Source: Syntrophotalea carbinolica DSM 2380
GTDB lineage: Bacteria > Desulfobacterota > Desulfuromonadia > Desulfuromonadales > Syntrophotaleaceae
DNA: 64,000 nucleotides
Reading direction: 5' to 3'
NCBI RefSeq assembly: GCF_000012885.1
Contig: NC_007498.2
Location: forward strand, 310,001 to 374,000
Part shown: positions 3,810 to 22,960 of the stretch, piece by piece
Numbering within the stretch: the stretch's first letter is position 1
Layout of the letters: the number at the start of each line of letters is the position of its first letter
Made by a program: the position numbers and the translations under genes
The notes under the pieces: generated by a model
The model's input: the letters and a program-made list of their open reading frames with translations, nothing else
Told to the model about the DNA's origin: nothing
The model's database searches: none

Positions 3810-4628
3810 TCAGCATTCAATCTCCACAAACTCCATGTCGTAAAGATCGATGGACAGGCAGCGGCGGCGGGTCGGGGTTCCCTGATTCAGTAAGACTTTG
3901 CACACTTCGGCTACTTCCAGACTGGCTACGACCGCTGGAGTGAATGACGGGTTGCCGAGGTGTTTTTCAAGGCCGCTTTCCTGGGAATTATGGGCGAAAA
4001 ATTTCTGCAGGGTTCGCTCTCCTGGAAACTGGGTCATAAGGAACCCGTACCAGCCGGCGATGGCGCCATGCACCAAGGGGATCGAAAGTTGCTGGCAGAT
4101 CTCCGCCAGTTCCAGGCGCACGGCAATGCTGTCCAGGGCGTCCACGGCCACGTGGCAGTTTTCCAGAATCCGGGTGCCGTTATCGAGGCCAAAGGCGAGG
4201 CCGACAGGTAGCAGTTCAACCGCAGGGTTGACGCGATCCACCCGGCGCGCGGCGGCGGCGACTTTTTTGATGCCTAAAAAGTCCGGAGTGGCCAGCAGCT
4301 GCCGGTTCATGTTGTGTTCTTCGAAAACATCGGGATCCACAGCTACGATGGTGCCGACTCCCAGGCGTGCCAGCTCCTCGATAATGTAGCCGCCCAGGCC
4401 CCCGCAGCCGATAACCGCTACCTTGCTGTTGTAAAGCTTGAGCTGATCGTCAAGGTTGAGCATGTTGCGGTTGCGCTGATAGCGTGCCGGGAGCAGGCCG
4501 TTTTTCAGGGCCGTTCCTTCGACTTCTCGAATGCTGACTTTGAATCGGTTGGCGGCAGACAGCTGGTCGGCCCACAACAGGAGGTCGTCCTTGGCTCTTT
4601 CTTTGAGCCAGGTCAGGAGATCTGGCAT
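3810..4628 (-). CDS. ThiF/MoeB/HesA-family adenylyltransferase
   Basis: A 272-residue E1-like enzyme. The Rossmann nucleotide site VIGCGGLGGYIIEELARLG (about residues 71-89) and the metal and adenylate region VDPDVFEEHNMNRQ (about 97-110) are intact, as is the conserved Asp in VAVDALDS. The N-terminal 65 residues form a helical extension. The usual zinc CxxC pairs of MoeB are not evident. Family members adenylate the C-terminal glycine of a ubiquitin-like sulfur carrier. The partner is almost certainly the MoaD-like protein encoded one base upstream, making this a cofactor or sulfur-transfer helper for the neighbouring AOR (inference). GGAGGG precedes the ATG inside the end of the MoaD-like gene. 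Confidence 0.88.
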   Translation of the reverse strand: MPDLLTWLKERAKDDLLLWADQLSAANRFKVSIREVEGTALKNGLLPARYQRNRNMLNLDDQLKLYNSKVAVIGCGGLGGYIIEELARLGVGTIVAVDPDVFEEHNMNRQLLATPDFLGIKKVAAAARRVDRVNPAVELLPVGLAFGLDNGTRILENCHVAVDALDSIAVRLELAEICQQLSIPLVHGAIAGWYGFLMTQFPGERTLQKFFAHNSQESGLEKHLGNPSFTPAVVASLEVAEVCKVLLNQGTPTRRRCLSIDLYDMEFVEIEC

Positions 4629-4629
4629 G

Positions 4630-4854
4630 TTACCCTCCGCCGACTTTGGGGAACAGGGAGATGGTCACACCGGCGTGGAGCACCTGGTCGGATGTAACGT
4701 GGCGTCCATCGATCAGGGCAACGCCAAGTTCCGGTTCTTTTATGCCCAGTTGTTCCAGCACGTCGGCGATTGTACAGTCGTCCTTGACTTCGCGTTTGGC
4801 CACTTTGAAACGATTTTCTCTGAATCCTGCAAAAAGCTTTACAAAAATGGTCAT
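4630..4854 (-). CDS. MoaD/ThiS-like ubiquitin-fold sulfur carrier
   Basis: A 74-residue beta-grasp protein ending FPKVGGG. MoaD and ThiS end in Gly-Gly, the site of adenylation and thiocarboxylation; this one has an extra Gly. The start MTIFVKLFAGFRENRF and the central GVALIDGRHV match MoaD-type carriers. It lies between AOR and the ThiF-like gene, an arrangement common for tungsten AORs. It may therefore supply sulfur for the AOR pterin rather than for general Moco synthesis; the general MoaE-like partner is far away at 55393. A 262-base gap with RNA-like structure separates it from AOR. Confidence 0.88.
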   Translation of the reverse strand: MTIFVKLFAGFRENRFKVAKREVKDDCTIADVLEQLGIKEPELGVALIDGRHVTSDQVLHAGVTISLFPKVGGG

Positions 4855-5116: not shown

Positions 5117-6847
5117 TCAGAAGTCCCAGAACTCATCGATCTCTTCATCGGTGAAGTCCCAAACGGCGTTGTGCGGTGGTATCGGTTCGTAGCTGAAGAA
5201 TTCCGGCAAGCGGTCATCCTGCTTGCTGAAACCTGCAGCCGTGTTGAAGTCGTGTTCGATTTTGAGGATTTTTTTGCCCAGCTCCGTTACGTCGTCGGCT
5301 GTCAGGTCGAGTCCGTAGGTTGCGTTGAGCAGGTCGATCAGTGCAGTGAACGACTCGGGGATATCCAGTGCCGGGAAGGCGATAAAAACACACATGCCGG
5401 TACTGTCCACGGCGGCGGTGGCGATCTGCAGGTTGCGCGAGAGTTCAACCTGACCGTCTTTCGTTAACGGATCGACATATCCGCCGACCTTGAGGATGTT
5501 GGTGGCGATGGTGTAGCCGGCAGTGTGGTCGGCGCCCATGGTGGAGGTGGCATAGGTGATGCCGATGCCTTTGACGGACCGCGGATCGTACGCGGGAATC
5601 CCCTGGTTTTTGACGACCGGTACCCGGACCAGGCCATAGGCTGTGCCGACCATGCCGGTTCCGTTGCCAAGGATCCGACCGAGAGGTGTGCCTTTGCCTA
5701 TCTCGTCGCGCAGTACGCGTTGGCATTCCTTGCCGTCACCCCAGGGGATCACGCCGGCTTCCATGGCGGTGGCGAGAAGTACAGCGCCTTCGATGGAGTC
5801 GATGCCTATGTCGTCCATCAAATTGTCGCATTTGGCGATGTCGTCCAAATCCTCGATCATGGCGTTGGCGCCCAGGCCCCAGATGGTTTCGTATTCGAAT
5901 CCCGAGGTGATGTAGCCGCCGGCCCTGTCCACGTAAACCTGTGAGCATTGGATGATGCAGCCTGCATGGCAACCGTGCTTATGTTTTCCGCCACGCTCGA
6001 CAATGGTGTCGTGCATGGTCTCGCCGCTGATTTTTTCATGGTGCTCGCATTGACCGTAGCGGAAGTTCTTGGTCGGCAGGCCGCCGGCTTCGTTGAGGAT
6101 GTTGATAAGGATATTGGTGCCGTAGGTGGGCAGTCCTTCGCCGCTGACCGGATGGTCCAGGAGCGATTTGGCGAAGATTTTCGCCGCAGCGCGGAATTTG
6201 TCCGGGTCGGCGATGGGGACCTTGCTCGCCCCGGTGTCGTCAATGGTGATGCACTTGATTTTTTTCGATCCCATGACGGCTCCGAGTCCGCCGCGACCGT
6301 GGCTGCGGATTTTCTGATCCGGATCCTTGACGGAAATGTTTGCGGCGCACATGCGCATTTCGCCTGGTACGCCAATGGAGAGGACCCCTATTTTGGGTCC
6401 GAATGTATCGATCATTTCGTCGATGATGGCAAAGTTCTGTTTCCCGACCAGGCTATCGGCAGCCTCAAAGGTGATGCCGTCCATGGTGATGTGCAGGCGG
6501 TACCATTTGTCTTCGGTGGGGGCGCCTTCGATGATGATGGCTTTGATACCCATGCGGGCCAGTTGTTGAGCGGCGGTGCCGCCCGCGTTGCTTTCCTTGA
6601 TGGTTCCGGTCAGAGGGCTTTTGGCGCCGGCCGACAAGCGTCCCGATTGTGCAGCGGGTGTGCCTGTTAAAAGGCCGGGAGCGAAGACCAGTTTGTTATT
6701 GGGGCCAAGGGGGTGGCATCTGGGGGGGACTTCGGCGGCGACGATGGTTGAGGTGAGACCGCGACCGCCAAGGCCTGCCCATTCCTCGGGAACGGACTCG
6801 CACTTGGTTGTCAGGTTCGACATGTTGATGCGAAAGATCTTGTTCAT
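5117..6847 (-). CDS. aor: Aldehyde:ferredoxin oxidoreductase (tungsten/molybdenum pterin)
   Basis: A 576-residue AOR-family enzyme that oxidises aldehydes to acids with ferredoxin (or the reverse). The N-terminal domain carries GLGGRGLT (residues 25-32) and FAPGLLTGTPAAQSGR. GRGGLGAVMGSK is at 184-195. The two pterin-binding DxxGx[DC] motifs are DDIGID (345-350) and DSTGMC (481-486). Iron-sulfur cysteines appear as Cys293, Cys297, Cys301 and Cys486; the first gap is three residues rather than the CxxC I recall for Pyrococcus AOR. GGAAGGAAA precedes the ATG. Flanked by two Fe-alcohol dehydrogenases and followed by MoaD- and ThiF-like genes, it most likely handles acetaldehyde; tungsten is inferred from family and physiology. 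Confidence 0.93.
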   Translation of the reverse strand: MNKIFRINMSNLTTKCESVPEEWAGLGGRGLTSTIVAAEVPPRCHPLGPNNKLVFAPGLLTGTPAAQSGRLSAGAKSPLTGTIKESNAGGTAAQQLARMGIKAIIIEGAPTEDKWYRLHITMDGITFEAADSLVGKQNFAIIDEMIDTFGPKIGVLSIGVPGEMRMCAANISVKDPDQKIRSHGRGGLGAVMGSKKIKCITIDDTGASKVPIADPDKFRAAAKIFAKSLLDHPVSGEGLPTYGTNILINILNEAGGLPTKNFRYGQCEHHEKISGETMHDTIVERGGKHKHGCHAGCIIQCSQVYVDRAGGYITSGFEYETIWGLGANAMIEDLDDIAKCDNLMDDIGIDSIEGAVLLATAMEAGVIPWGDGKECQRVLRDEIGKGTPLGRILGNGTGMVGTAYGLVRVPVVKNQGIPAYDPRSVKGIGITYATSTMGADHTAGYTIATNILKVGGYVDPLTKDGQVELSRNLQIATAAVDSTGMCVFIAFPALDIPESFTALIDLLNATYGLDLTADDVTELGKKILKIEHDFNTAAGFSKQDDRLPEFFSYEPIPPHNAVWDFTDEEIDEFWDF

Positions 6848-7180
6848 TATCGTTTCCTTCCGATTCGGGTTAAATGCATGTGGAGCTGATGTGCTCTCCG
6901 AAACACAACCTACCTTCTCCCGTCTGGTGCGGTGCTGGAGAAGTACCGGTGGTAGAAAACTTACAAGCCCTCCGCTGGTGCCAGGTCATTTTAGATGGAA
7001 AACGCTGGTTCCGGCAGTCGATGTTCGAGGCGGCAGGATCTCGGGCCTCGACGGTTGATGTTGACGGCGGGAAAATGCGTGTTTCCACGTCAATGTGTCA
7101 CCTTGAGTTGGTCCATTCTCTCGAGGTGAATGCGAAGCATAGAACAACTAGTGCCATTATAGCCTATGCCGGCACTTCGG
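6848..7180 (-). promoter_or_regulatory. AOR promoter and long 5' leader
   Basis: On the minus strand a perfect TATAAT at 7156-7161 lies 18 bases after a weak TTGTGC box, directly downstream of the terminator of dehydrogenase 2. This gives an mRNA leader of about 300 bases. The leader holds a CGAGGC / GCCTCG hairpin and no gene. Repeated GTGCC/GGCAC words around the -10 box could be an operator. I looked for a Moco-type riboswitch here and could not fit one. Confidence 0.5.
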
Positions 7181-7183
7181 CAC

Positions 7184-7218
7184 AAAAAAGGAGCAGTTGG
7201 GTTTCCCTCAATTGCTCC
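7184..7218 (-). terminator. Second terminator after dehydrogenase 2
   Basis: On the minus strand, GGAGCAATTG pairs with AACTGCTCC (one G-U) and is followed by TTTTTT. It insulates the AOR promoter. Confidence 0.85.
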
Positions 7219-7248
7219 ACAAGAATAATCTGCATCGAATGATTTTTA

Positions 7249-7276
7249 AGAATGCGCCCGCCATAAGGCGGGCGCA
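7249..7276 (-). terminator. First hairpin after dehydrogenase 2
   Basis: The perfect stem GCGCCCGCC / GGCGGGCGC with a TTAT loop lies 12 bases past the stop; its T tract is poor, and the stronger terminator follows 40 bases later. Confidence 0.7.
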
Positions 7277-7287
7277 AATTCAGCATA

Positions 7288-8460
7288 TTACATGGCTGCT
7301 TTGTAGATGCTGATAACCTGGTCCAGCGTAGCCGAACGGGGGTTGGTCAGCATGCAGGCGTCTTTCTGGGCATTTTCTGCCATGGTCTTGAGGTCTTCTT
7401 CTTTGACATTCAGCTCGGTCAGGCCGGCCGGGATGCCGATGGAAGCGGACAGCTCGCGAATGGCTTCGATACCGGCAGCAGCAGCTTCGGTGACGCTCAG
7501 ACCCTCGGTGGGTACGCCCATGAAGTCGGCGATGTCAGCGAAACGATCCGGGCAGGCGATCATGTTGTAGTCGCAGACGGCCGGCAACAGGATGGCGTTG
7601 CAGACACCGTGAGGCAGGTTGTAGAAACCGCCCAGCTGGTGAGCCATGGCGTGTACGTAGCCGAGAGAGGCGTTGTTGAACGCCATGCCGGCCAGGTACT
7701 GCGCGTAGCACATGGCATCGCGAGCGGCGATGTTGGCGCCCAGAGCAACGGCCGGACGCAACCACTCGGCGATCAGACGGATGGCTTTTTCGGCGCAAGC
7801 GTCGGTGATCGGAGTGGCGATGGTGGAAACATAGGCTTCCACGGCGTGAGTCAGGGCATCCATGCCGGTGGCTGCGGTCAGTGCGGGGGGCTTGCCCAGC
7901 ATCAGAACGGGGTCGTCAACGGCGATCAACGGGGTGACGCGCCAGTCAACGATAGCCATTTTGACATGGGTGTCGGTGTTGGTGATGATGCAAAAGCGGG
8001 TCATTTCGGAAGCGGTACCCGCGGTGGTGTTGATGGCGACGAGGGGGGTCATGGGAACGGTGGATTTGTTCACGCCCTCGTAGTCGCGGATGTGGCCGCC
8101 ACCGGCGGTAACCAGGCCGATACCTTTGGCGCAGTCATGGGAGGAGCCGCCGCCCAGGGAGACGATGAAGTCGCAGCCGTTGTCCTGGAAAACTTTAACG
8201 CCGTCGTGGACGTTTTTGTCGGTGGGGTTGGGCTCGGCACCGGGATAGATGACGACATCAACGCCTGCGTCCTTAACGTAACCGGCGATGGTGTCGGCAA
8301 CACCCATCTTCATCAGACCAGCATCGGTGACGAGAAGAGCTTTTTTTGCGCCAAGTTCTTTGGCCTTGGGGCCAACTTCTTTGGCACAACCGGGGCCCAT
8401 CAGGGTAACGCTGGGGATGAAGAAGCCGAAAGTAGTTTCTGCGAGATTTACAACGGGCAT
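7288..8460 (-). CDS. Iron-containing alcohol dehydrogenase (copy 2)
   Basis: A 390-residue paralogue of copy 1 at about 94 percent identity, with the same GGGSSHDCAKGIG turn and the same four iron ligands (Asp201, His205, His270, His284). Differences cluster at residues 91-94 and in the loop GVPTEGLSVTEA. GAGGAGG precedes the ATG. Unlike copy 1, it has a sigma54-type promoter element at 8721-8737 and an inverted repeat in its leader, so the two copies are likely used under different conditions. Two tandem terminators follow. An ethanol or related primary alcohol role is inferred from the nearby AOR and Rnf. Confidence 0.95.
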   Translation of the reverse strand: MPVVNLAETTFGFFIPSVTLMGPGCAKEVGPKAKELGAKKALLVTDAGLMKMGVADTIAGYVKDAGVDVVIYPGAEPNPTDKNVHDGVKVFQDNGCDFIVSLGGGSSHDCAKGIGLVTAGGGHIRDYEGVNKSTVPMTPLVAINTTAGTASEMTRFCIITNTDTHVKMAIVDWRVTPLIAVDDPVLMLGKPPALTAATGMDALTHAVEAYVSTIATPITDACAEKAIRLIAEWLRPAVALGANIAARDAMCYAQYLAGMAFNNASLGYVHAMAHQLGGFYNLPHGVCNAILLPAVCDYNMIACPDRFADIADFMGVPTEGLSVTEAAAAGIEAIRELSASIGIPAGLTELNVKEEDLKTMAENAQKDACMLTNPRSATLDQVISIYKAAM

Positions 8461-8490
8461 GATGAATCCTCCTCATAAGATGAGTTTTTT

Positions 8491-8515
8491 GTGAAAGCAA
8501 CGAAATGGCTTTCAC
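8491..8515 (-). promoter_or_regulatory. Inverted repeat in the leader of dehydrogenase 2
   Basis: GTGAAAGC and GCTTTCAC form a perfect 8-base inverted repeat spaced by 9 bases, just upstream of the ribosome site. It could be an operator or an mRNA hairpin. TTTACA and TAAGTA, 16 bases apart, lie further up at about 8550-8577 and could be a weak sigma70 promoter. Confidence 0.4.
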
Positions 8516-8720
8516 CACAAATAAAAACATCCGCTTGAAAATCTTACTTACCTGACACCGACAAACTGTAAAAGATTGTCTGAATCAATAATGTACAAAG
8601 TTGTTTCGGTGGGTCACCTCCTTCCCATGGTACATATGGGTTCCAATCTATCTTTGAATTTAGTGTTTACCAAATGCCAAAACGATGGTTTATGCATTCG
8701 GGCTGGGAGTTATAGGCATT

Positions 8721-8737
8721 AGCAATTTGAATGCCAG
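8721..8737 (-). promoter_or_regulatory. Sigma54 (-24/-12) promoter for dehydrogenase 2
   Basis: Read on the minus strand the sequence is CTGGCATTCAAATTGCT. It matches the sigma54 consensus YTGGCACGNNNNTTGCW at all key positions, with GG and GC exactly 10 bases apart. The predicted start is near 8710, giving a ~250-base leader. Three copies of [TC]TGATAC-like words (TCGATAC at 8994 and 9020, TTGATAC at 9033) sit 260-300 bases upstream, where activator sites are expected. A sigma54 response regulator is encoded at 14128. Confidence 0.7.
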
Positions 8738-9065
8738 TAGTGTTTACGGTTTGTCTTTCAAAAACAGAACAGCGTGCTTTTTATTTCCGTTGAGACTTCG
8801 ATTCCCGGCCAAGTCCCGGTCCCTTAGGCGAAAACCGAAATCCATCAAAACAAAACACGGTTAGAGTTTTTGCTTTCAACGGGTCGGGGCGGAGTTGGTG
8901 TCGGTGGATGATTGCCCCGTAAATGTGTTCCAGAAGTGATGCGGTGTGTCAAATCAGGTACTGAGTGTTCCTTTTTGTAACGCCCTGGTTGTGTCGATAC
9001 GTAACGGCTTCAGCTTCGATTCGATACTTGGTTTGATACAGCCCGTTTCGAGTTGGTCTTTGTGG

Positions 9066-9092
9066 TTGAAAATTTCCGGACATTATTATAAC
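9066..9092 (+). promoter_or_regulatory. Possible promoter for the moeA leader
   Basis: TTGAAA and TATAAC with a short 15-base spacer. It lies about 110 bases before the riboswitch. The spacing is suboptimal, so this is tentative. Confidence 0.3.
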
Positions 9093-9199
9093 TTGGATGG
9101 CCTACGCGAATGAGGGGGCATGGTTTTCGCCTGCCGGGCTTGTTGCGGCCCGGTGGTAGCTACGGCTCCGTCGTTTGCAGGTAACATATTGAATCCACA

Positions 9200-9334
9200 A
9201 CAAAGTGCAATCAAGAATGCGCCTCCGAGCCTGATGCCCTAAAAGAGATTTTATCTCTCAGGGGCGTCGGGCCGATGGGTTTCGCCGGAAACAGCGGAGC
9301 CTCCCTGTTTTCGGAAAGGAGACCATTGCCTTGG
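9200..9334 (+). ncRNA. Moco/Tuco-type riboswitch upstream of moeA
   Basis: The segment contains the conserved words I recall for the Moco RNA motif in the right order: GCCTCCGAG (9221-9229), a P2 stem GATGCCCT / AGGGGCGTC extended by AGAGA/TCTCT, then GATGGG, CGCCGGAAAC and GGAGCCTCC (9296-9304). A terminal helix GCAAT/ATTGC can close it. Between GATGGG and CGCCGG there is no room for the P3 hairpin. Reduced-P3 variants have been proposed to sense tungsten cofactor. An intrinsic terminator follows and moeA is the next gene, so cofactor binding would control moeA by attenuation. Identification is from remembered consensus, not from a covariance search. Confidence 0.8.
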
Positions 9335-9355
9335 GCTGTTTGAGGTAATGTATCC

Positions 9356-9393
9356 AAAAAGGTTCTTTCCGATGAAAGGGGGGAACCTTTTTG
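9356..9393 (+). terminator. Attenuator of the moeA riboswitch
   Basis: AAAAAGGTTC pairs perfectly with GAACCTTTTT, ending in a T run, 280 bases before the moeA start. Its place just after the riboswitch suggests a regulated terminator. Confidence 0.8.
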
Positions 9394-9672
9394 CGTCGGG
9401 TGTTATTGTAGCAGAGATTTTTTGACTTGCAGGGTCAGGTCAAAAAAAATTGAGCAATACGCTGTTTTATCGATTGCGCAATGTTCGATCCGGGGGTAGG
9501 ACTAAAAGGAAAAGTCCTTGTCTTGAAAAATATTTAACGGTGCCGTGCCGGTGGCTTGGATACCTGTTGTCAGCCCGGGGCTCGCCGTTTTCGAATTTTC
9601 CGCTTAGTTTTTTTTGTGGGTTATGGAATATCCTGGAGGAACCAGCCACGTCTGAAGGAGGCCGATACAGCC

Positions 9673-10890
9673 ATGCCGAGCTTTTTGGAAGCCCGAAATC
9701 TGATACTTGCAAATGTTCCTCTACTGGGTCAGGAACGCGTTCTTATTAGCGATGCCGTCGGCCGCATTCTGGCCGAAGATGTAACCGCGACCTGGGATAT
9801 GCCGCGTTGGACCAATTCCGCTATGGACGGTTATGCTGTCCGCAGCCAGGATTGCCAAAAGCCGACACGCCTCGAAGTTATCGATTTTATTCCCGCGGGT
9901 GGCGGTTCCGACAAGACGGTCGAACCGGGTACTGCCATCAAAATCATGACCGGGGCTCCTCTGCCGGCAGGGGCCGATGCCATCGTGCCTGTCGAGGAAA
10001 CGGCCGAGGAGGGGCATCTTGTACATGTTCAAAAGACGGTCAAAGCCCATGCCCATGTTCGTGTCAAAGGCGAAGACGTGAAGCAGGGCGAATGTGTGGT
10101 GCCGCGAGGGACGCTGCTTCGACCTGCGGAAATCGGCATGTTGGCATCGTACGGCAAGGTGTTTGTGCCGGTTTACCGTAAACCTCGTGTCGCTATTCTA
10201 TCTACGGGGGACGAACTTGTAGAGCTGGGCGAGACCCTCAGCGAAGATCGCATCATCAACAGCAACTCGCTGGCTCTGGTCGCATCCCTGAAAGAAATCG
10301 GCGCCGAACCGGTCGTCCTTGGCATTGCACTTGACAATCGGGCCAGCCATATAGAAAAAATCAGCGAAGGACTCAAAGCCGATGCGTTGATAACCTCCGC
10401 CGGCGTATCCACCGGCGACCGGGATTTTGTTCGTTCGGTGTTGGAGGAGCTTGGGGTCAAACCTGTTTTCTGGAAAGTCGATATCAAGCCGGGGCGGCCG
10501 ACGACCTTTGCCATGAGGGAAGGAACTCCCGTCTTTTCGCTGCCCGGCAATCCCGTCTCGACCATGGTTACCTTCGAGGAGCTGGTGAAGCCGGCGTTGC
10601 TGAAAATGATGGGGCATACCAAGGTGATCAAGCAGGAAATCGAAGCGGTTCTGGAGAGCGATCTGACCAAAAAACGCCTCGGGGTTCTCAATTTTCAGAG
10701 AGTCAATATCCGTCTTCAGGACGGATGCTATTTCGCCAGTTGCTCCGGTGACCAGAATACCGGCATCTTAAAGACCATGGTGCGCGCCGATGCTCTGGCC
10801 CTGCTGCCGGAAGACAAGGATGTATTCAAGGTCGGTGAAAAAGTCAAAGTTCATCTGCTGAGTTCGCAGGTTGGCATGTCGGAGATGTGA
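9673..10890 (+). CDS. moeA: Molybdopterin molybdenumtransferase (MoeA)
   Basis: A 405-residue MoeA, which inserts molybdate (or tungstate) into adenylated molybdopterin. Family motifs are MDGYAVRSQD near residue 50, PAGGGSDKTVEPGTAIKIMT, MTGAPLPAGADAIVPVE, the MoCF-binding stretch ISTGDELVE-like (AILSTGDELVELG, about 178), ITSAGVSTGDRDF and SLPGNPVSTMVTFEELV. The ATG at 9673 is used because AAGGAGG precedes it; the frame is open further upstream but that part lies in the leader and is unlike MoeA. The riboswitch ahead and the AOR cluster next door suggest a role in supplying the AOR cofactor. Confidence 0.95.
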   Translation: MPSFLEARNLILANVPLLGQERVLISDAVGRILAEDVTATWDMPRWTNSAMDGYAVRSQDCQKPTRLEVIDFIPAGGGSDKTVEPGTAIKIMTGAPLPAGADAIVPVEETAEEGHLVHVQKTVKAHAHVRVKGEDVKQGECVVPRGTLLRPAEIGMLASYGKVFVPVYRKPRVAILSTGDELVELGETLSEDRIINSNSLALVASLKEIGAEPVVLGIALDNRASHIEKISEGLKADALITSAGVSTGDRDFVRSVLEELGVKPVFWKVDIKPGRPTTFAMREGTPVFSLPGNPVSTMVTFEELVKPALLKMMGHTKVIKQEIEAVLESDLTKKRLGVLNFQRVNIRLQDGCYFASCSGDQNTGILKTMVRADALALLPEDKDVFKVGEKVKVHLLSSQVGMSEM

Positions 10891-15757: not shown

Positions 15758-16366
15758 TCAACGTTCGGAGATCGAGCGCTTGCGATTTTTCCAGCCGTTG
15801 ATCGCCGCCAGCAGAAATCCCAGGGCCAGAAAGGCACCGGGTGGCAGGATCATCAGCAACATGGGGTGAAAACCGGCCCCGGTCATCTGCAGGCCAAACA
15901 GGCTGCCGGCGCCCAACAGCTCCCGGACCCCGCCGAGCATGACCAGCGCGAGGGTGAATCCGAGCCCCATGCCGGCACCGTCGGCGGCCGAGGCCCACAG
16001 CGGCTGGCGGGAAGCAAAGGCTTCGGCGCGGCCCAGAATCAGGCAGTTAACGACAATCAGCGGGATAAAAATGCCCAGTGCCTGATACAGCTCGAAGGCA
16101 TAGGCCTCCATCAGCAGCTGCACCACCGTGACGAAGGTCGCAATGATCACGATGAAGGCCGGAATGCGTACTTTGGCGGGAATCAAGGTGCGCAGGGCCG
16201 ATACGGCCATATTGGAGCAAAGCAGAACGCTGGTGGTGGCCAGCCCCATACCCAGCCCATTCATGGCGCTGGTGGTTACCGCCAGGGTCGGACACATGCC
16301 GAGCACCAGTTTAAAGATGGCGTTGTTACGCCACAGTCCGCTGCTGAAAATGGCCCAGAGTTTCAT
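15758..16366 (-). CDS. rnfE: Rnf complex subunit RnfE
   Basis: A 202-residue integral membrane protein with about six helices, homologous to RnfA and NqrD/E. Recognisable stretches are NNAIFKLVLGMCPTLAVTTSAMNG, shortened here as the conserved N-terminal LGMCPTLAV, and the half-channel segment GIFIPLIVVNCLILGRAEAF. RnfA and RnfE together hold a membrane-embedded Fe-S centre; Cys in LGMCP and VNC are the expected ligands. The start ATG overlaps the rnfG stop (ATGA). It is the last gene of the operon. Confidence 0.95.
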   Translation of the reverse strand: MKLWAIFSSGLWRNNAIFKLVLGMCPTLAVTTSAMNGLGMGLATTSVLLCSNMAVSALRTLIPAKVRIPAFIVIIATFVTVVQLLMEAYAFELYQALGIFIPLIVVNCLILGRAEAFASRQPLWASAADGAGMGLGFTLALVMLGGVRELLGAGSLFGLQMTGAGFHPMLLMILPPGAFLALGFLLAAINGWKNRKRSISER

Positions 16367-16968
16367 GGCTGTGCTCCGGTATCGGCCAGGATCAGAGCTG
16401 CCTGGCTGCGATACTTCTGCAGGCCCTCGGCAAGACCGGCGACAACCGCGCGCGAGGAGATGGTGGCTCCGCTGATCTGATCGAAATCGCCACCGTCCTT
16501 GCGGACCCGCCAACGATAGCCGGTCAGCCCCTTGCCGAGGAAACGTTGCCGGAAGGCCGGCTCCTCGATGCGGTTGCCGAGACCGGGCGTCTCGGTCTGG
16601 TGCAGGATCTCCAGGCCGAGCAGGGTGCCGTCGGGAGCTACGCCGACCATCATGCTGATGGGGCCTCCGTAACCTTTTTGCGCCACGACCTTAAACGCTA
16701 TGCCTACGATACGGCCCTGGCGACGCCCGCGGTAGTAGATCGTAGGCTGCGAGGCGTCATGGTCTGCCGGCTCCGCCGGGAGGGTGACGGTATCCTTGTC
16801 CGGCGTGTTGTCCACCGCCGGCAGCACCGCGCCCAAAGCCGTCCTCTGTTGCCGGGCATGCTGCTCGATAATGGGCTGGCGCGTACAGCGTTCGGTTACC
16901 CCCAGCAGCAACCCGGAAAGGGCGGTGATCAGCGTCAATACCAGCATGAAACGTACCCCTTCGCTCAT
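16363..16968 (-). CDS. rnfG: Rnf complex subunit RnfG (flavoprotein)
   Basis: A 201-residue protein with one N-terminal membrane helix and a periplasmic FMN-binding domain. The flavinylation motif ISGATISSRAVV is intact; FMN attaches to the Thr of SGAT by phosphodiester bond. The conserved HQTETPGLGNRI is also present. Its ATG overlaps the rnfD stop, and its stop overlaps the rnfE start, indicating translational coupling. Confidence 0.95.
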   Translation of the reverse strand: MSEGVRFMLVLTLITALSGLLLGVTERCTRQPIIEQHARQQRTALGAVLPAVDNTPDKDTVTLPAEPADHDASQPTIYYRGRRQGRIVGIAFKVVAQKGYGGPISMMVGVAPDGTLLGLEILHQTETPGLGNRIEEPAFRQRFLGKGLTGYRWRVRKDGGDFDQISGATISSRAVVAGLAEGLQKYRSQAALILADTGAQP

Positions 16969-17969
16969 AGGATGCCTCGCGAACTGCCCATACCGAAGGG
17001 GCGCGGTACCAGATAGCGGTCCAGCAGCGGGGTGACCGTATTCATGAGCAGGATGGAAAACGCCACCCCCTCGGGATAACTGCCAAACAGGCGGATAAGC
17101 ACGGTAAACAGTCCGCAACCGCAGCCGTACAGCAGCATGCTGCGCCCTGTCAACGGCGAGGTGACCAGGTCGGTGGCCATATAAAAAGCCCCCAGCATCA
17201 GGCCGCCGGACAGCAGGTGAAAAACCGGATGGGGGTAGCGGCTCGGATCGACAAGCCAGAACATGCCGGAGACTGTCGCCACCGTGCCGATGTAACTGAC
17301 CGGAATATGCCAGCTGATGACCCGTCGCCAGAGCAGGAACAGAGCGCCGATTAACAGCGCCAGGGCCGAGACCTCGCCCAGGCAGCCGGCCATGTTGCCG
17401 AGCAGATAATCAAGAGCAAAACCGGTCGCATTCGGCGGCAGATGGCCGCTGAGCATCACGGCGCTTTTGGTTTCGCTCAAGGGTGTCGCTGCCGTTACCG
17501 CATCGGCCAAAAACCGCCCGGGTTGCGGCCCCGACCAATGGGTCATGACCGTGGGAAAAGACACCAGCAGCACGATACGGGCCACCAGTGCCGGATTGAA
17601 CGGATTATGCCCCAGCCCGCCAAAGACCTGCTTGCCGATCACGATGGCGATAACCGAACCGAGCAGAGCCAGCCACCAGGGGCTCGACGGCGGCAGATTG
17701 AAGGCCACCAGCAAGCCGGTCAGTACGGCGCTGCCATCGCTAACGGTGACCGGACTGCCGACGGCTTTCTGCCACAGTGCTTCCACGGCCACGGCGGAGG
17801 CAACACAGATCGTCATGACGGCTACAGCGGCCAGCCCGAACAGGTAGACGGCGACAACCGCCGCCGGCAGCAGGGCCAGTATCACGGCGCCCATCATGCC
17901 GCGGGTGGTCATGCCGCAGTGCAGGTGCGGGGAACAGGATACGCTCAGCAGTGGCTTGGAATGCTGCAT
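16965..17969 (-). CDS. rnfD: Rnf complex subunit RnfD (membrane flavoprotein)
   Basis: A 334-residue polytopic membrane protein related to NqrB. The motif DAVTAATPL matches the site at which RnfD carries covalent FMN on threonine. GLGHNPFNPALVARI and the C-terminal SYPEGVAFSILLMNTVTPLLDR are typical. The start ATG at 17967-17969 overlaps the end of rnfC by a few bases. It takes electrons from the cytoplasmic subunits towards RnfG. Confidence 0.95.
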   Translation of the reverse strand: MQHSKPLLSVSCSPHLHCGMTTRGMMGAVILALLPAAVVAVYLFGLAAVAVMTICVASAVAVEALWQKAVGSPVTVSDGSAVLTGLLVAFNLPPSSPWWLALLGSVIAIVIGKQVFGGLGHNPFNPALVARIVLLVSFPTVMTHWSGPQPGRFLADAVTAATPLSETKSAVMLSGHLPPNATGFALDYLLGNMAGCLGEVSALALLIGALFLLWRRVISWHIPVSYIGTVATVSGMFWLVDPSRYPHPVFHLLSGGLMLGAFYMATDLVTSPLTGRSMLLYGCGCGLFTVLIRLFGSYPEGVAFSILLMNTVTPLLDRYLVPRPFGMGSSRGIL

Positions 17970-17970
17970 T

Positions 17971-19284
17971 TTACATGCTCCTGCGTCGGGCCAGGATGGC
18001 GCCTTTGGCATAACGAATCGACTGCACCAGTGGTATCCCGGCCGGACAGACAAAAGAACAGCTGCCACATTCGATGCAGTTGCGTGCCGCGAAGCGTTCC
18101 GCCAGCGCCAGTTCGTCTCGACGGGCATAATCGGCGATAAAAGTCGGCATCAGGTGCATGGGACAGGCGGCGACACATCGGCCGCAGCGCACACACGAAC
18201 CGATGGCGGCGGTTGTCTGGTCCTGGCGGCGAAAGGCCAGCACGCCGCTGGTGCCGCGCAGCACGGGGACCGCGAGCGTATGTTGGGCGGTCCCCATCAT
18301 CGGGCCGCCGAGCAGCACCTTGGCCGGCTCCCCGCGCAGTCCGCAATGCTCAAGCAGATGAGCGATCGGCGTACCGATACGCACCCGCAGGTTTTGCGGA
18401 TGGACCACGCCGGGGCCGCTGACGGTTACCATGCGTTCGATAAGCGGGCGTTGGCGTGTTACCGCATCGGTCAGAGCCGCCACGGTGCCGACATTCTGTA
18501 CCAGCACTCCCACATCCATGGGCAGCCCGCGAGCCGGCACCCGGCGTCCCGTTACCGCGTAGATCAGTTGGCGTTCCGCCCCCTGGGGATATTTGGCGGG
18601 CAGCACTGCCAGGCCGATACCGCGCTGTCGGCAGTGGGGAGCCAGCAGTGCGGCGGCATCGGGCTGGTTGTCCTCCATCCCGATCCAGACATGGTCGGCG
18701 TCGGTGATTTTCTGCAAAACCTCAATCCCGGTCAGAACTTTTTCCATCCGTTCCAGCAGCGTGCGCCGGTCGGCCGTCAGCCAGGGTTCGCATTCCACCG
18801 CGTTGACGATCACCGTATCGATGGTTTTATCCCGCGGCGGATCGAGTTTGACATGGCTCGGAAACGCAGCGCCGCCCATACCCACCACCCCCGCTTCGCG
18901 AATGCGATCGAGCATTGCGGCAACGGTCAGTACGTGGAAACTCTGTTTTTGTACCTCTTCGGCCCATACATCGTCGCCGTCAGGTTTTAGAACCACCGCC
19001 GGCAGGTCGGTGCCGCAAGGGTGGGGGCGCGGCTCCACCGCCGTAACCAGACCGGAGGTCGAGGCATGCACCGGTACCGAGACGAACCCGTGGGCACGGC
19101 CTATGGTCTGCCCCCGTAGTACGTGCTGGCCGGCGCCGACACAAGGGGTGGCGGGCGCACCGACATGCTGGGCCAGGGGGATGACCAGCTCAGGCGGTAA
19201 GGGGCAGGTTGCGCTGGGGGTATCTGCCGTCGCTGATTTATGTGAGGGCGGATGGGTGCCGCCGGGAAAACCCCGCCGGGTCAT
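17971..19284 (-). CDS. rnfC: Rnf complex subunit RnfC (NADH-binding, Fe-S, FMN)
   Basis: A 438-residue soluble subunit that exchanges electrons with NAD(H). Features: an N-terminal RnfC barrel-sandwich region, the flavin/NAD-binding GVVGMGGAAFPSHVKL, VNAVECEPWLTADRR, and two C-terminal 4Fe-4S motifs, CVRCGRCVAACPMHLMP and CIECGSCSFVCPAGIP. The ATG is at 19282-19284 with AAGGA upstream and overlaps the rnfB stop (ATGA). The open frame extends further upstream only because of high GC. Confidence 0.95.
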   Translation of the reverse strand: MTRRGFPGGTHPPSHKSATADTPSATCPLPPELVIPLAQHVGAPATPCVGAGQHVLRGQTIGRAHGFVSVPVHASTSGLVTAVEPRPHPCGTDLPAVVLKPDGDDVWAEEVQKQSFHVLTVAAMLDRIREAGVVGMGGAAFPSHVKLDPPRDKTIDTVIVNAVECEPWLTADRRTLLERMEKVLTGIEVLQKITDADHVWIGMEDNQPDAAALLAPHCRQRGIGLAVLPAKYPQGAERQLIYAVTGRRVPARGLPMDVGVLVQNVGTVAALTDAVTRQRPLIERMVTVSGPGVVHPQNLRVRIGTPIAHLLEHCGLRGEPAKVLLGGPMMGTAQHTLAVPVLRGTSGVLAFRRQDQTTAAIGSCVRCGRCVAACPMHLMPTFIADYARRDELALAERFAARNCIECGSCSFVCPAGIPLVQSIRYAKGAILARRRSM

Positions 19285-20129
19285 GATCCCGTTCCTTTCG
19301 TGGTGGCAGGTGCCGGGGCAACCGTCTCGCCGCCAGCTGCGAAGGTTTCGATGCAGTGATGCGGGCAGCGGTCGATGGCACTGGCCATGGTTGCCGGATC
19401 TTCGTGTCCGTAGCGTACCACCGCCAGGGCATCGTCCATAATAAAGCTGTCCGGGGCGGCTTTGACGCAAAGGCGGCAGCCGAGACAGCCGGCATCGCAG
19501 TATTTCTTTACCTTGGCAGCGGTATCGTGGCTGTTGCACAGAACATGGGTCTGCGCAACGGCGGGAGCCAGGGTCAGGACCTGTCGCGGACAGATCGAAA
19601 CGCACAGGCCGCAGCCGGTGCAGCGATCACGATTCACCACCGCCAGGCCCACGCTGTTGATGCTCAACGCGCCAAACGGGCAATGTTGCACGCAACTGCC
19701 CAATCCCAGGCAGCCCGACGGACAAAGTTTGGGTCCAAAAGCCAGTTTCTGGGCGGCGCGGCAATCCTGCAGGCCCTGATAGTCGTATTTGGCGCGGGCC
19801 ATCTGTCGATTGCCGCGGCAGCGAACCACGGCGATCTGCGGTTGGCGGGGCGTTGCCTCGATACCGAGGATGGCGGCAATGCGCGCCAGGGTTTCGGCCC
19901 CGCCGGGGCGGCACAGGTCCGGCTTGGCATTGCCGGCCAGCAACGCGCGCGCATAGGCGTCGCACCCGGGATAACCGCAGGCGCCGCAATTGGCACCTGC
20001 CAGCACCTCCAGCAGCGCAACCTGCCGGGGGTCGACGGTGACGGCGAAGCGCCGGGCGGCCATGGCCAACAACAGCGCCGCGATACACCCAAGGCTTCCA
20101 AGACTGATGATTGCAGCAAACATGTTCAT
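19281..20129 (-). CDS. rnfB: Rnf complex subunit RnfB (ferredoxin-interacting Fe-S protein)
   Basis: A 283-residue protein with an N-terminal membrane anchor and many Fe-S cysteines. The four-Cys domain has GANCGACGYPGCDAYA. Two further clusters are CPSGCLGLGSCVQHCPFGA and CTGCGLCVSICPRQVL. A last set, CDAGCLGCRLCVKAAP with a later CPHHC, gives a ferredoxin-like region. It accepts electrons from reduced ferredoxin, such as AOR would make. The ATG at 20129 or 20123 follows rnfA by about 7 bases. Confidence 0.95.
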   Translation of the reverse strand: MNMFAAIISLGSLGCIAALLLAMAARRFAVTVDPRQVALLEVLAGANCGACGYPGCDAYARALLAGNAKPDLCRPGGAETLARIAAILGIEATPRQPQIAVVRCRGNRQMARAKYDYQGLQDCRAAQKLAFGPKLCPSGCLGLGSCVQHCPFGALSINSVGLAVVNRDRCTGCGLCVSICPRQVLTLAPAVAQTHVLCNSHDTAAKVKKYCDAGCLGCRLCVKAAPDSFIMDDALAVVRYGHEDPATMASAIDRCPHHCIETFAAGGETVAPAPATTKGTGS

Positions 20130-20136
20130 TCCGCTT

Positions 20137-20718
20137 TCAACCCGGCACCAGGCCGGCAAAACCCATGAATGCCAGTGCCAGCAGCCCGGCAGTGATCAGT
20201 TCGATAGGTGTGCCGCGAAAAGCCGCCGGCACCGGACACAGGCGCAGACGTTCGCGTAATCCGGCAAACAAAACCAGGGCCAGCGTAAAACCGACTGCGC
20301 CGCCAAAAGCGAACACCAGACTCTGCACAAAACTGTAACCCTGCTGGATGTTGAGCACCGCCAAACCGAGGACGGCGCAATTGGTGGTAATCAGGGGCAG
20401 GAAAATACCCAGGGACTGGTACAGCACCGGCGAGGATTTGCGTACGATCATTTCCACCATCTGCACCAGCGTGGCAATGACCAGAATAAAAGCGATGGTC
20501 TGCAGATAATCGAGATGGTAGGGCGTCAGTACCAGATATTGCAACACCCAGGTGCAGCCGCTGGCCACCACCATCACGAAGGTGACGGCCATACCCATGC
20601 CAAGGGCTGTTTCCACTTTTCTGGAGACGCCGAGAAACGGGCATAATCCGAGGAATCGCGCCAACACAAAATTGTTGACAAGTACCGCTCCGATCAAGAT
20701 TAACAGCAGATTTTTCAT
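20137..20718 (-). CDS. rnfA: Rnf complex subunit RnfA
   Basis: A 193-residue, six-helix membrane protein and the first gene of the operon. It begins [20 protein letters not shown], with the typical [11 protein letters not shown] and [15 protein letters not shown] segments holding the conserved cysteines. GGAGG precedes the ATG at 20716-20718. Gene order A-B-C-D-G-E is that of Rhodobacter and Escherichia (rnf/rsx), not the C-D-G-E-A-B order of acetogens. Confidence 0.95.
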
Positions 20719-20760
20719 GCGCTCCCTCCAGCCGGTATCCAAGCCGGCCAAACGCTTTTG

Positions 20761-20789
20761 AGCTTACCGCAGCGCTCGAACCAAAGCAA
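20761..20789 (-). promoter_or_regulatory. Weak candidate promoter for the rnf operon
   Basis: On the minus strand TTGCTT and TAAGCT are 17 bases apart, about 45 bases before rnfA. The match is poor, so the call is tentative. Confidence 0.3.
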
Positions 20790-20835
20790 TTTTTAATTCG
20801 ACCGATCTCCATATCGCAGGGTGGTATTTCAATTC

Positions 20836-20921: not shown

Positions 20922-22205
20922 ATGTCATATTCTCGATCGCATCAGTTTTTCGAGCGCGCCCGCAAGGTTATCCCCGGCGGCGTCAACAGCCCTGTTCGTG
21001 CATTTAAGGCCGTCGGTCGCCAGCCCCTGTTCATCGAGCGGGCCGAAGGCTGCACGCTTGTCGATGCCGACGGCAACCGTTATATCGACTACGTCGGCTC
21101 CTGGGGCCCCATGATCGTCGGCCACAGCCACCCCAAAGTGGTGGAAGCCATATGCGATGCTGCCGCTCGCGGTACCTCTTTCGGTGCCCCGACCGCTCTG
21201 GAAATCGAACTGGCCGAGCAGGTCTGCGCCGCTTTTCCGAATATGGAAAGCGTGCGCATGGTGTCTTCGGGCACCGAGGCGACCATGAGTGCCATCCGTC
21301 TGGCGCGCGGTGTAACCGGTCGCGACAAGATTCTTAAGTTCGAGGGGTGTTATCACGGCCATGCCGACAGTCTGCTGGTGGATGCCGGCAGCGGTGTCGC
21401 TACCTTCGGTATCCCCGCCTCGCCGGGTGTGCCGGCGGATTTCGCCCGCCATACGCTGACGGCTCCCTACAACGATCTGGGCAGGGTCAGGGCGCTGGTC
21501 GAAGAACACAAAGCGGATCTGGCGGCCATCATCCTCGAACCGATCGCCGGCAACATGGGCTGCGTACCGCCGCAACCGGGATTTCTCGAGGGACTGCGCG
21601 CCTTGTGCGATCAGCACGAGATTCTCTTGATTATCGACGAGGTCATGACCGGTTTTCGTGTCAGCTACGGCGGCGCGCAACAATTGTACGGTGTGCGCGG
21701 CGATCTGGTCTGTCTGGGCAAGGTCATCGGCGGCGGGCTGCCGGTCGGCGCTTTTGGTGGCCGTCAGGATATCATGCGGCATCTGGCGCCGGATGGCGGC
21801 GTGTATCAGGCCGGTACCCTGTCGGGGAATCCCCTGGCCATGAGTGCCGGCATCGCTACCTTGAAGCTGATAAGGGAAGAAGGGGTGTATGAGCAGCTGG
21901 AGCAACGCAGTGCCTACCTGGCCGAGGGGCTGCGGCAGGCGGCTGCCGCAGCCGGGGTGCCTGCCTGTCTGCAACGGGTCGGCAGCATGTTCTGCAACTA
22001 TTTCCAGACGGGGCCGGTGACTTCCTTCGCCGATGCCAAAGCCAGCGATACCGAGGCGTTTGCCCGCTATTTCGGACAGATGCTGGATAACGGCGTACAT
22101 CTGGCGCCGTCCCAGTTCGAGGCCGGCTTCGTGAGTCTGGCTCACACGGTGGAGGATATCGATCGTACCGTCGAGGCGGCGCATCGGTCGTTGAAGGCGA
22201 TTTGA
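20922..22205 (+). CDS. hemL: Glutamate-1-semialdehyde 2,1-aminomutase
   Basis: A 427-residue PLP enzyme that converts glutamate-1-semialdehyde to 5-aminolevulinate in the C5 route to haem. Conserved stretches are [15 protein letters not shown] near the N-terminus, [38 protein letters not shown] and the PLP lysine site [16 protein letters not shown] (Lys about 267). AGGAAAG precedes the ATG. It is transcribed away from rnf, which shares the short intergenic region. Full length for the family. Confidence 0.97.
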
Positions 22206-22256
22206 TCTGTTCGGGGGCGTTTCCTGGAGGTTGGTGGCGGAGCGCTCCCGTTTTTG

Positions 22257-22299
22257 ATTCTTGGTACTTGGTACAACGATACTTGGTTTTTGATACTTC
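22257..22299. repeat. Short TACTTGG-type heptamer repeat
   Basis: Repeated CTTGGTA/TACTTGG words occur several times in about 40 bases just before the first family A repeat. It belongs with other 7-base simple repeats scattered through the window. Confidence 0.5.
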
Positions 22300-22304
22300 A
22301 ACAT

Positions 22305-22585
22305 CAACACCGGCGGGTCGCGTCTCGCCAGACGCCTTACTTTTTGTCCAGACGGCAACAAAAAGTAAGCAAAAAATGCCTTGCCCTCCGGGAAGGCATG
22401 TCCGGTGCGGAGAGGTGGAGGACGTCACCCTTTTGCAGGTTATTGGTGGTGTCGCTGCTTTTCTTGGGGCTCTTCCGCTTTTGAAACTGCGTTGCTGAAA
22501 TCGTTTGTTTTTTCTCTTTGTCGATCCGGGCGAGTACGATTCTGTTGGGTAAACCTTAAACACCTTTAGAACCAAGCATCAGGAC
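22305..22585 (+). repeat. Intergenic repeat family A, copy 1
   Basis: About 281 bases. It starts CAACACCGGCGGGTCGCG, has a stem CTTACTTTTTG...CAAAAAGTAAG around a loop, then the stem-forming TGCCTTGCCCTCCGGGAAGGCA, and ends ACCAAGCATC. It is about 88-90 percent like copy 2. Its first ~70 bases share architecture with repeat family B. Both strands show open frames, but these look like by-products of high GC. Confidence 0.85.
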
Positions 22586-22642
22586 ACCGCGTTGGCGGTT
22601 TTTTCAATTTAGCAGCGTCGGTGTCTGCAACAGTTTTGCAGG

Positions 22643-22923
22643 CAACACCGGCGGGTCGCGTCCCGCCGGACGCCTTACTTTTTGTCCAGACGGCAACAAA
22701 AAGTAAGCAAAAAGTGCCTTGCCCTCCGGGAAGGCATGTCCGGCGCGGAGAGGCGGAGGACGTTACTCTTTTGCAGATTGTTGGTGGCGTCGCCGCTTTC
22801 TTTGGAGCTCTTCCGCTTTTGAAACTGCGTTGCTGAAATCGTTCGTTTTTCTTTCTGTCGAAATGGGCGAGTGCGATTCTGTTGGGTAGAACCTTAACCC
22901 CCTCAGAACCAAGCATCGGGAAT
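22643..22923 (+). repeat. Intergenic repeat family A, copy 2
   Basis: A second copy in the same orientation, offset by 338 bases from the first, with the same start, same internal CTTACTTTTTG/CAAAAAGTAAG stem and same end. Confidence 0.85.
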
Positions 22924-22924
22924 G

Positions 22925-22960
22925 CAGTCACTAATCACCAGTCACTAGTCACCAATCACT
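22925..22960. repeat. Heptamer repeat (A[AG]TCAC[CT])
   Basis: Five successive 7-base units of the type AGTCACT, AATCACC, AGTCACT, AGTCACC, AATCACT. The same motif recurs near 32502, 32637, 38858, 56316 and 58523. Confidence 0.8.

Follow-up and report, generated by a model that had tools for sequence, protein, structure and literature searches.

The RNA encoded upstream of moeA in the window (the whole 64,000-nt stretch of DNA analysed here) is probably a Moco-class pterin-cofactor riboswitch that lacks the P3 helix, responds mainly to the tungsten cofactor and turns moeA off by transcription termination. The RNA does belong to a known riboswitch class, and both this class and the tungsten idea have already been published for this organism. 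The present analysis adds the antiterminator anatomy of the moeA leader, a possible split of the platforms that follow the aptamer and, as counter-examples, P3-less RNAs that precede mod genes. Computation establishes the family membership of the RNA, the absence of P3, the terminator, the exclusive pairings and their recurrence among relatives.

The aptamer and its missing P3

Rfam model RF01055 matches the RNA end to end (model positions 1-135; cmscan) at 9211-9337 on the plus strand, with 69.0 bits against a gathering score of 36. The E value is 1.5e-14 over the 64-kb window and was 7.7e-16 in a repeat search. This is the sole gathering-level Rfam match within the window; a search of 6600-9800 returned seven further matches, all below their own gathering scores, and no second RF01055 match on either strand up to E 10. 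The gene context also fits the family, with a molybdenum/tungsten cofactor gene, moeA, downstream. The original prediction had claimed a Moco-type riboswitch without P3 and had proposed to run RF01055 and inspect P3. Both claims are borne out: the match lies above the gathering score, and its alignment lacks the 15 model positions occupied by P3. The aptamer is organized as follows:

9211..9337, plus strand: P3-less Moco RNA aptamer (RF01055; cmscan 69.0 bits, P3 positions deleted)
9223..9226, plus strand: P1 core 5′ strand, CUCC (cmscan alignment)
9229..9272, plus strand: P2, 12 outer pairs and an inner hairpin (fold, in agreement with the cmscan alignment)
9273..9276, plus strand: CGAU, the whole P2-P4 interval and the expected place of P3 (sequence, alignment and fold)
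9277..9302, plus strand: P4 with a GAAA tetraloop (cmscan alignment; 10 of 11 positions pair)
9303..9314, plus strand: P5, CC with GG (cmscan alignment)
9318..9321, plus strand: P1 core 3′ strand, GGAG (cmscan alignment)

P1, P2, P4 and P5 are all present around the conserved junction, as judged by alignment and pair check. In the cmscan alignment the P4 tetraloop GGAAAC is present together with the 5′ half of its receptor in P2, CCUAA; the 3′ half of the receptor reads CAGGG, the consensus being AuGg. Only CGAU separates the end of P2 (9272) from the start of P4 (9277). The gap left by P3 had been placed where GATGGG runs into CGCCGGAAAC. The helix is indeed absent, but its place was wrongly assigned: that stretch is P4, whose 5′ strand, GGGTTTCGCCG, is common to P3-bearing Moco RNAs as well, and the expected site of P3 lies between GGCC (9270-9273) and ATGGG. 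At this site the E. coli moaA RNA holds 28 bases, and its P2-P4 segment folds as two stems, P2 and P3. The E. coli riboswitch (149 moaA) shares its core and OFF logic with the moeA leader. However, it has P3, which the moeA leader does not, and carries its ribosome site inside P1 (PMC2408646), whereas the moeA leader carries a separate terminator about 280 bases before the gene.

Terminator and antiterminator of the moeA leader

A terminator had been predicted directly behind the aptamer, and a 16-bp stem does begin 17 bases past the aptamer match. The elements of this part of the leader and the controlled gene are:

9311..9318, plus strand: antiterminator strand 1, UCGGAAAG, inside the aptamer (P5/P1); perfect 8-bp complement of 9365-9372
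9324..9350, plus strand: linker hairpin joining the antiterminator strands (11-bp hairpin in free and constrained folds)
9355..9393, plus strand: intrinsic terminator, 16-bp stem ending in a U run (P 0.96 when the full-length leader folds freely, 0.998 under the aptamer constraint)
9365..9372, plus strand: antiterminator strand 2, CUUUCCGA, in the terminator 5′ arm and loop (fold of partial transcripts)
9673..10890, plus strand: moeA, 405 aa (PF03453, PF00994, PF03454)

The three domains confirm the predicted identity of moeA, which starts at ATG 9673 with AAGGAGG 11 bases upstream. A generic terminator scan did not return 9355-9393; its sole match was P4 of the aptamer.

In equilibrium folding of partial transcripts, the pairing of 9311-9318 with 9365-9372 has a probability of 0.83, 0.99 and 0.97 at transcript ends 9373, 9380 and 9385 respectively, and the probability of the P1 core in the same transcripts is 0. 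The terminator then reaches 0.75 at transcript end 9390 and 0.96 at 9397. Constraining the moeA leader to form the aptamer raises the terminator to 0.998. Aptamer and antiterminator are mutually exclusive, so ligand should give termination. Left unconstrained, the full-length leader favours the terminator anyway, so any switching has to take place while the RNA is being transcribed.

Cofactor-induced termination is the most likely mechanism suggested by these folds. With no ligand, the 3′ strand of the aptamer (9311-9318) would pair with 9365-9372 and RNA polymerase would read on into moeA. With cofactor bound, 9311-9318 would be held in P5/P1, the terminator at 9355-9393 would form and transcription would stop. 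Such a switch would exert product feedback on MoeA, the enzyme that inserts the metal into molybdopterin. By analogy with the family, which works genetically as an OFF switch in E. coli (PMC2408646), ligand binding would drive the choice between terminator and antiterminator.

The same anatomy recurs among relatives. Inspection by eye showed that the terminator arm GGTTCTTTCC (four leaders) or GGTTTCTTTCC (one leader) is kept in five same-family leaders (G000, G002, G007, G009 and G011). The kept arms are complementary to the GGAAAG of the aptamer while the remainder of the terminator varies, and the MoeA gene is first or second in four of the five. Stepwise folding gave peaks of 11.1 (G000), 9.7 (G007), 6.1 (G009) and 13.0 (G011) aptamer-terminator pairs, and in G011 the pairs persist to the longest transcript tested (12.9). 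The G002 leader showed 0.0 such pairs in the stepwise fold and 3.96 in a test of 121 leaders. This larger test covered the leaders of the order and the phylum that have a separate terminator; those whose first stem overlaps the aptamer were left out. In 84 of the 121 leaders, five or more aptamer-terminator pairs are in place before the 3′ arm has been transcribed, compared to 11 of 121 with shuffled arms; the other 37 stay below five pairs. The longest exact complement between aptamer and terminator averages 6.36, compared to 4.35 for shuffled sequences and 5.41 after swapping with the terminators of other leaders. All nine MoeA-class leaders tested form the pairing, the tenth being of the overlap class. 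It forms in none of four TonB leaders and in neither of two acetylating aldehyde dehydrogenase leaders, and the antiterminator design is therefore not universal.

A constitutive terminator behind a relic aptamer that no longer switches would also be dominated by the terminator stem in the free full-length RNA, and the roughly 280 bases between terminator and moeA mean that an internal promoter could drive the gene. However, a promoter scan gave one plus-strand match (9422-9450) where 1.6 are expected by chance, the conserved core words are intact in an RNA that scores 69 bits, and relatives retain the complement needed for the antiterminator in otherwise variable terminators, a frequent pattern. 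Loss of switching is accordingly an improbable explanation, and a functional OFF switch is preferred.

Gene neighbourhood

The AOR cluster beside the RNA is divergent and does not lie downstream of it:

3810..4628, minus strand: ThiF/MoeB-like gene of the AOR cluster (PF00899)
4630..4854, minus strand: small ORF, 74 aa, ending in GG, ThiS/MoaD-like by eye (ORF translation)
5117..6847, minus strand: AOR gene, aorA1, Pcar_0254 by position (PF02730, PF01314; no RF01055 match upstream)
7288..8460, minus strand: Fe-containing alcohol dehydrogenase, between the AOR gene and the RNA (PF00465, PF25137)

The adjacency of an AOR cluster had been correctly predicted, as PF01314 and PF02730 confirm, but the cluster runs in the opposite direction, separated from the RNA by an alcohol dehydrogenase gene, and is not under the switch. 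A second alcohol dehydrogenase gene also lies on the minus strand. The two alcohol dehydrogenases of the window are 94% identical (367/390) and lie five genes apart, with the AOR gene between them; by number, the same layout holds for Pcar_0251 and Pcar_0255 with aorA1 (Pcar_0254) in the middle (PMC3543383). Together with the AOR identities given below, this gene order fits Pelobacter (Syntrophotalea) carbinolicus DSM 2380.

Control of this divergent cluster by the RNA is very improbable. Moco riboswitches have been predicted for aorA1, aorA2 and aorA3 (PMC3543383). However, the only RF01055 match of the locus is on the plus strand and points to moeA, and 2.36 kb, including the alcohol dehydrogenase gene, separate it from the start of aorA1 on the opposite strand. 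We infer that the published aorA1 riboswitch may be the divergent moeA RNA.

Elsewhere in the window, inspection of the ORF translations by eye suggests an Rnf-like minus-strand cluster at 15758-20812, and two ORFs at 21856-22931 carry a long, nearly identical translated repeat, probably a multicopy element.

Sister RNAs and tungsten in this genome

The genome (G000) contains four P3-less copies of the aptamer: one before moeA and three directly before AOR genes, namely aorA2, aorA3 and a fifth, divergent AOR gene at 2.958 Mb. The three sister RNAs (L035, L036 and L037) score 64.9-71.5 bits against RF01055. In L036, the RNA (7679-7798) lies directly before the fifth AOR gene (5762-7690). The fifth AOR is 28-29% identical to the other three compared, and its gene is missing from the four aorA genes listed in the 2012 genome paper (PMC3543383). 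The AOR genes at 804 and 556 kb are 75.2-75.5% identical, the range coming from the denominator, and the AOR at 804 kb is 75.2-75.3% identical to that of the window; 75.4% has been reported between Pcar_0665 and Pcar_0456 (PMC4275255). PF01314 has five matches in the genome, i.e. genes of tungsten use are present, and the TupA-like matches fall below the curated cut-off.

Tungsten use by the organism, as originally predicted, is supported by the three sister copies before AOR genes and by published cultures. Cultures given 300 nM tungstate contained more of the W-AORs Pcar_0456 and Pcar_0665 than cultures given 150 nM molybdate, and tungstate increased the activity of non-acetylating acetaldehyde dehydrogenase 5.8- to 36-fold and that of formate dehydrogenase 100- to 2700-fold (PMC4275255). 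Tungsten is favoured for this organism on these two grounds, the sister copies and the reported rise of Pcar_0665 and Pcar_0456; from the sister copies that front AOR genes we infer that the ligand here is mainly the tungsten cofactor. The level of AOR protein may reflect the stability of the apo-enzyme, and aorA transcripts also shift with the substrate (PMC3543383). Moreover, a tungstate response needs no such RNA, since formate dehydrogenase activity rises and no formate dehydrogenase gene lies at any of the four RNAs of the genome.

P3 and the choice of metal across the phylum

The link between a reduced P3 and tungsten has been published, as the original prediction had stated, and is therefore not a new suggestion: 58 of 176 Moco RNAs lack P3 and were tied to tungsten use, with Pelobacter carbinolicus named as a carrier (Regulski 2008, PMC2408646). 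Sensing of the tungsten cofactor by P3-less RNAs was left open in 2008 because the cofactor was too unstable for binding assays (PMC2408646). The moeA leader shares with this P3-lacking (proposed Tuco) class a full-length RF01055 match, the lack of P3, a cofactor-synthesis gene downstream and a terminator platform; the leader and its antiterminator are not described in the passages of PMC2408646 available. The metal question is not settled in the available parts of PMC7653027, PMC3766115, PMC12121620 and PMC9943018. A search of titles and abstract openings in the open literature gave nothing on the moeA leader, its antiterminator or an ON/OFF split. A study by Amadei in 2023 is reportedly on the E. 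coli structure.

RF01055 matches were found in 40 of 58 relatives and in 79 of 395 genomes of the phylum, 76 of them over the cut-off. The set analysed comprises the 217 matches over the cut-off; six matches below it and L005 were left out. P3 is absent in 216 of the 217 RNAs, 207 by fold and nine by reading. In the former, a single stem spans the whole stretch between the P2 start and P4. The five scorable P3-bearing controls (E. coli, L229, L240, L279 and L317) fold as two stems; L241 and L245 were unscorable. P2 reaches P4 in all nine exceptions to the fold, where either the stem search was misplaced at its start or end or the P4 stem is degenerate. The P3 state of the one remaining RNA, G264:C62 (39.9 bits), is unclear. 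The linker letters between P2 and P4 gave no clear split as a metal determinant.

Other measures of P3 were set aside. An automatic helix search, which classed 182 RNAs as P3-less, 22 as P3-plus and 11 as unclear and found no P4 in 2, hardly told the E. coli control apart (7 against 6). A junction pattern found in 202 of 217 RNAs was too lax and would also fit E. coli moaA. The P2-P4 gap, in at least 116 named pattern stretches, is unreliable where GGCC also occurs inside P2. Genomes of f37 have many long aptamers, up to 193 bases (L063, L121, L122, L133, L146, L148, L155 and L156), which can mimic P3 by length alone because of an expanded P2 loop; two of these long RNAs precede a hydrogenase small subunit. 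Tandem pairs of Moco RNAs, about 150-400 bases from start to start, occur in L105, L110, L095, L124, L173, L183 and L176.

The first genes downstream of the 217 RNAs include those for AOR (41), MoaA (26), porin O/P (20), TupA-like (17), MoeA (10) and ModA (10) proteins and, more rarely, permease (6), CoxM-like (6) and XDH-like (2) proteins; gene clusters were named from representatives, and the CoxM, MogA, FdhA and hydrogenase large-subunit labels were given by eye. Eight P3-less RNAs precede xanthine-dehydrogenase-type genes. The phosphate-selective-porin-like gene (PF07396; one representative scanned), seen in L142 and 20 leaders, is the third commonest first gene behind the RNA. It precedes TupA-like genes in contig L234 and is a possible outer-membrane channel for tungstate or molybdate. 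In L107, L063, L135 and L145, P3-less RNAs precede NAD(P)-type semialdehyde dehydrogenases (one of the four domain-scanned), which need neither molybdenum nor tungsten. These enzymes are possibly metal-free isozymes of AOR, by analogy with the B12-independent metE placed under B12 riboswitches.

AOR is present in 310 of the 395 phylum genomes. By hand comparison, it occurs in 72 of the 79 RNA-bearing genomes, the seven without it being G176, G252, G317, G374, G409, G428 and G199. In the first six of these, all seven RNAs precede mod-type genes and fold without P3. No AOR was detectable when these six genomes were rechecked, and five of them have no TupA-like match at E 1e-5. Their ModA proteins, one per genome, score 197-225 bits against TIGR01256, well past its molybdate cut-off of 62.5. 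In the AOR-less G199 (82% complete), the RNA precedes moaA.

Because P3-less RNAs precede mod genes in six genomes without AOR, loss of P3 does not by itself mean tungsten. The step from a missing P3 to tungsten in the original prediction is therefore not supported, and the published P3-lacking = tungsten split (PMC2408646) is no general rule in this phylum. Loss of P3 is not a tungsten marker by itself; the case for tungsten here rests on the regulon, and P3 status alone should not serve to call tungsten use from genomes.

The census bears on another reading of the same OFF switch, in which the aptamer senses the molybdenum cofactor, or both cofactors alike, and P3 is irrelevant to the choice of metal. 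The near-complete absence of P3 in the phylum speaks for it, as do the P3-less RNAs before mod genes in AOR-less genomes, five of them also without a TupA-like match, and those before xanthine-dehydrogenase-type genes; in addition, MoeA inserts either metal. This reading is nevertheless rather unlikely for the moeA leader, given that the three other copies of the genome precede AOR genes, that more AOR protein was found in W-only than in Mo-only cultures (PMC4275255) and that P3 and metal split near-perfectly over 176 RNAs (PMC2408646). An OFF switch sensing mainly the tungsten cofactor is the reading retained here.

A possible ON platform in AOR leaders

The sister RNAs have the same P3-less aptamer as the moeA leader but, unlike it, no terminator. 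Their start codon follows P1 by 46-51 bases, and their ribosome site holds GGGAG, complementary to the CUCCC of the aptamer. Among the phylum leaders, a terminator ends within 85 bases of GGAAAGG in 3 of 45 AOR leaders compared to 136 of 162 other classed leaders; one search span was used for both groups, and 10 of the 217 leaders, whose first gene fell in no class, were left out. This count supersedes an earlier contrast (2/45 compared to 146/162) in which the search span was wider for the other leaders. GGGAG is found in the ribosome site of 35 of 45 AOR leaders, 38 of 244 other genes and 5 of 24 AOR genes without the RNA (13 of 37 such loci, without a recognised start, were left out). Some GGGAG-CUCCC match is expected for any gene, since CUCC also resembles the ribosome's own anti-SD.

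With the aptamer locked, the ribosome site was freed in 16 and hidden in 2 of 40 AOR leaders, and among 160 chimeras 42 went up and 16 down (p 0.015; like the p-values for GGGAG, the RNA-less control and the terminator, this value is too small because the AOR leaders share ancestry). The 45 AOR leaders cover 14 family labels by hand count; five were left out of the locking test, two with a wrong start and three not parsed. The ribosome site of aorA2 (0.39 to 0.39) and aorA3 (0.03 to 0.09) changed almost nothing. A first folding test of 38 AOR leaders, in which the site was freer in 22 and less free in 6, lacked P2 constraints and was dropped.

Given the locking result and the published rise of AOR proteins with tungstate, an ON design of the AOR leaders is plausible. 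Tentatively, one P3-less aptamer might serve two opposite platforms according to gene function: OFF, by antiterminator against terminator, for supply genes such as moeA, moaA, tup and mod, and ON for tungsten enzymes (AOR), where the unliganded CUCCC would mask the GGGAG ribosome site and ligand would free it, P3 not being the metal selector. If this is true, the tungsten enzyme would be made only when its cofactor exists, and supply would be shut down meanwhile. The genome offers a clean in vivo test, with one aptamer class and, for the same ligand, a predicted fall of moeA and rise of aorA2 and aorA3; the organism is cultured and has already been grown W-only and Mo-only.

In a sister genus, an acetylating acetaldehyde dehydrogenase gene lies downstream of the same aptamer (L086 and L087; G007 and G009 loci L077 and L081). 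In G007 the terminator stem begins within the GGAG of the aptamer, the anatomy expected of an ON switch.
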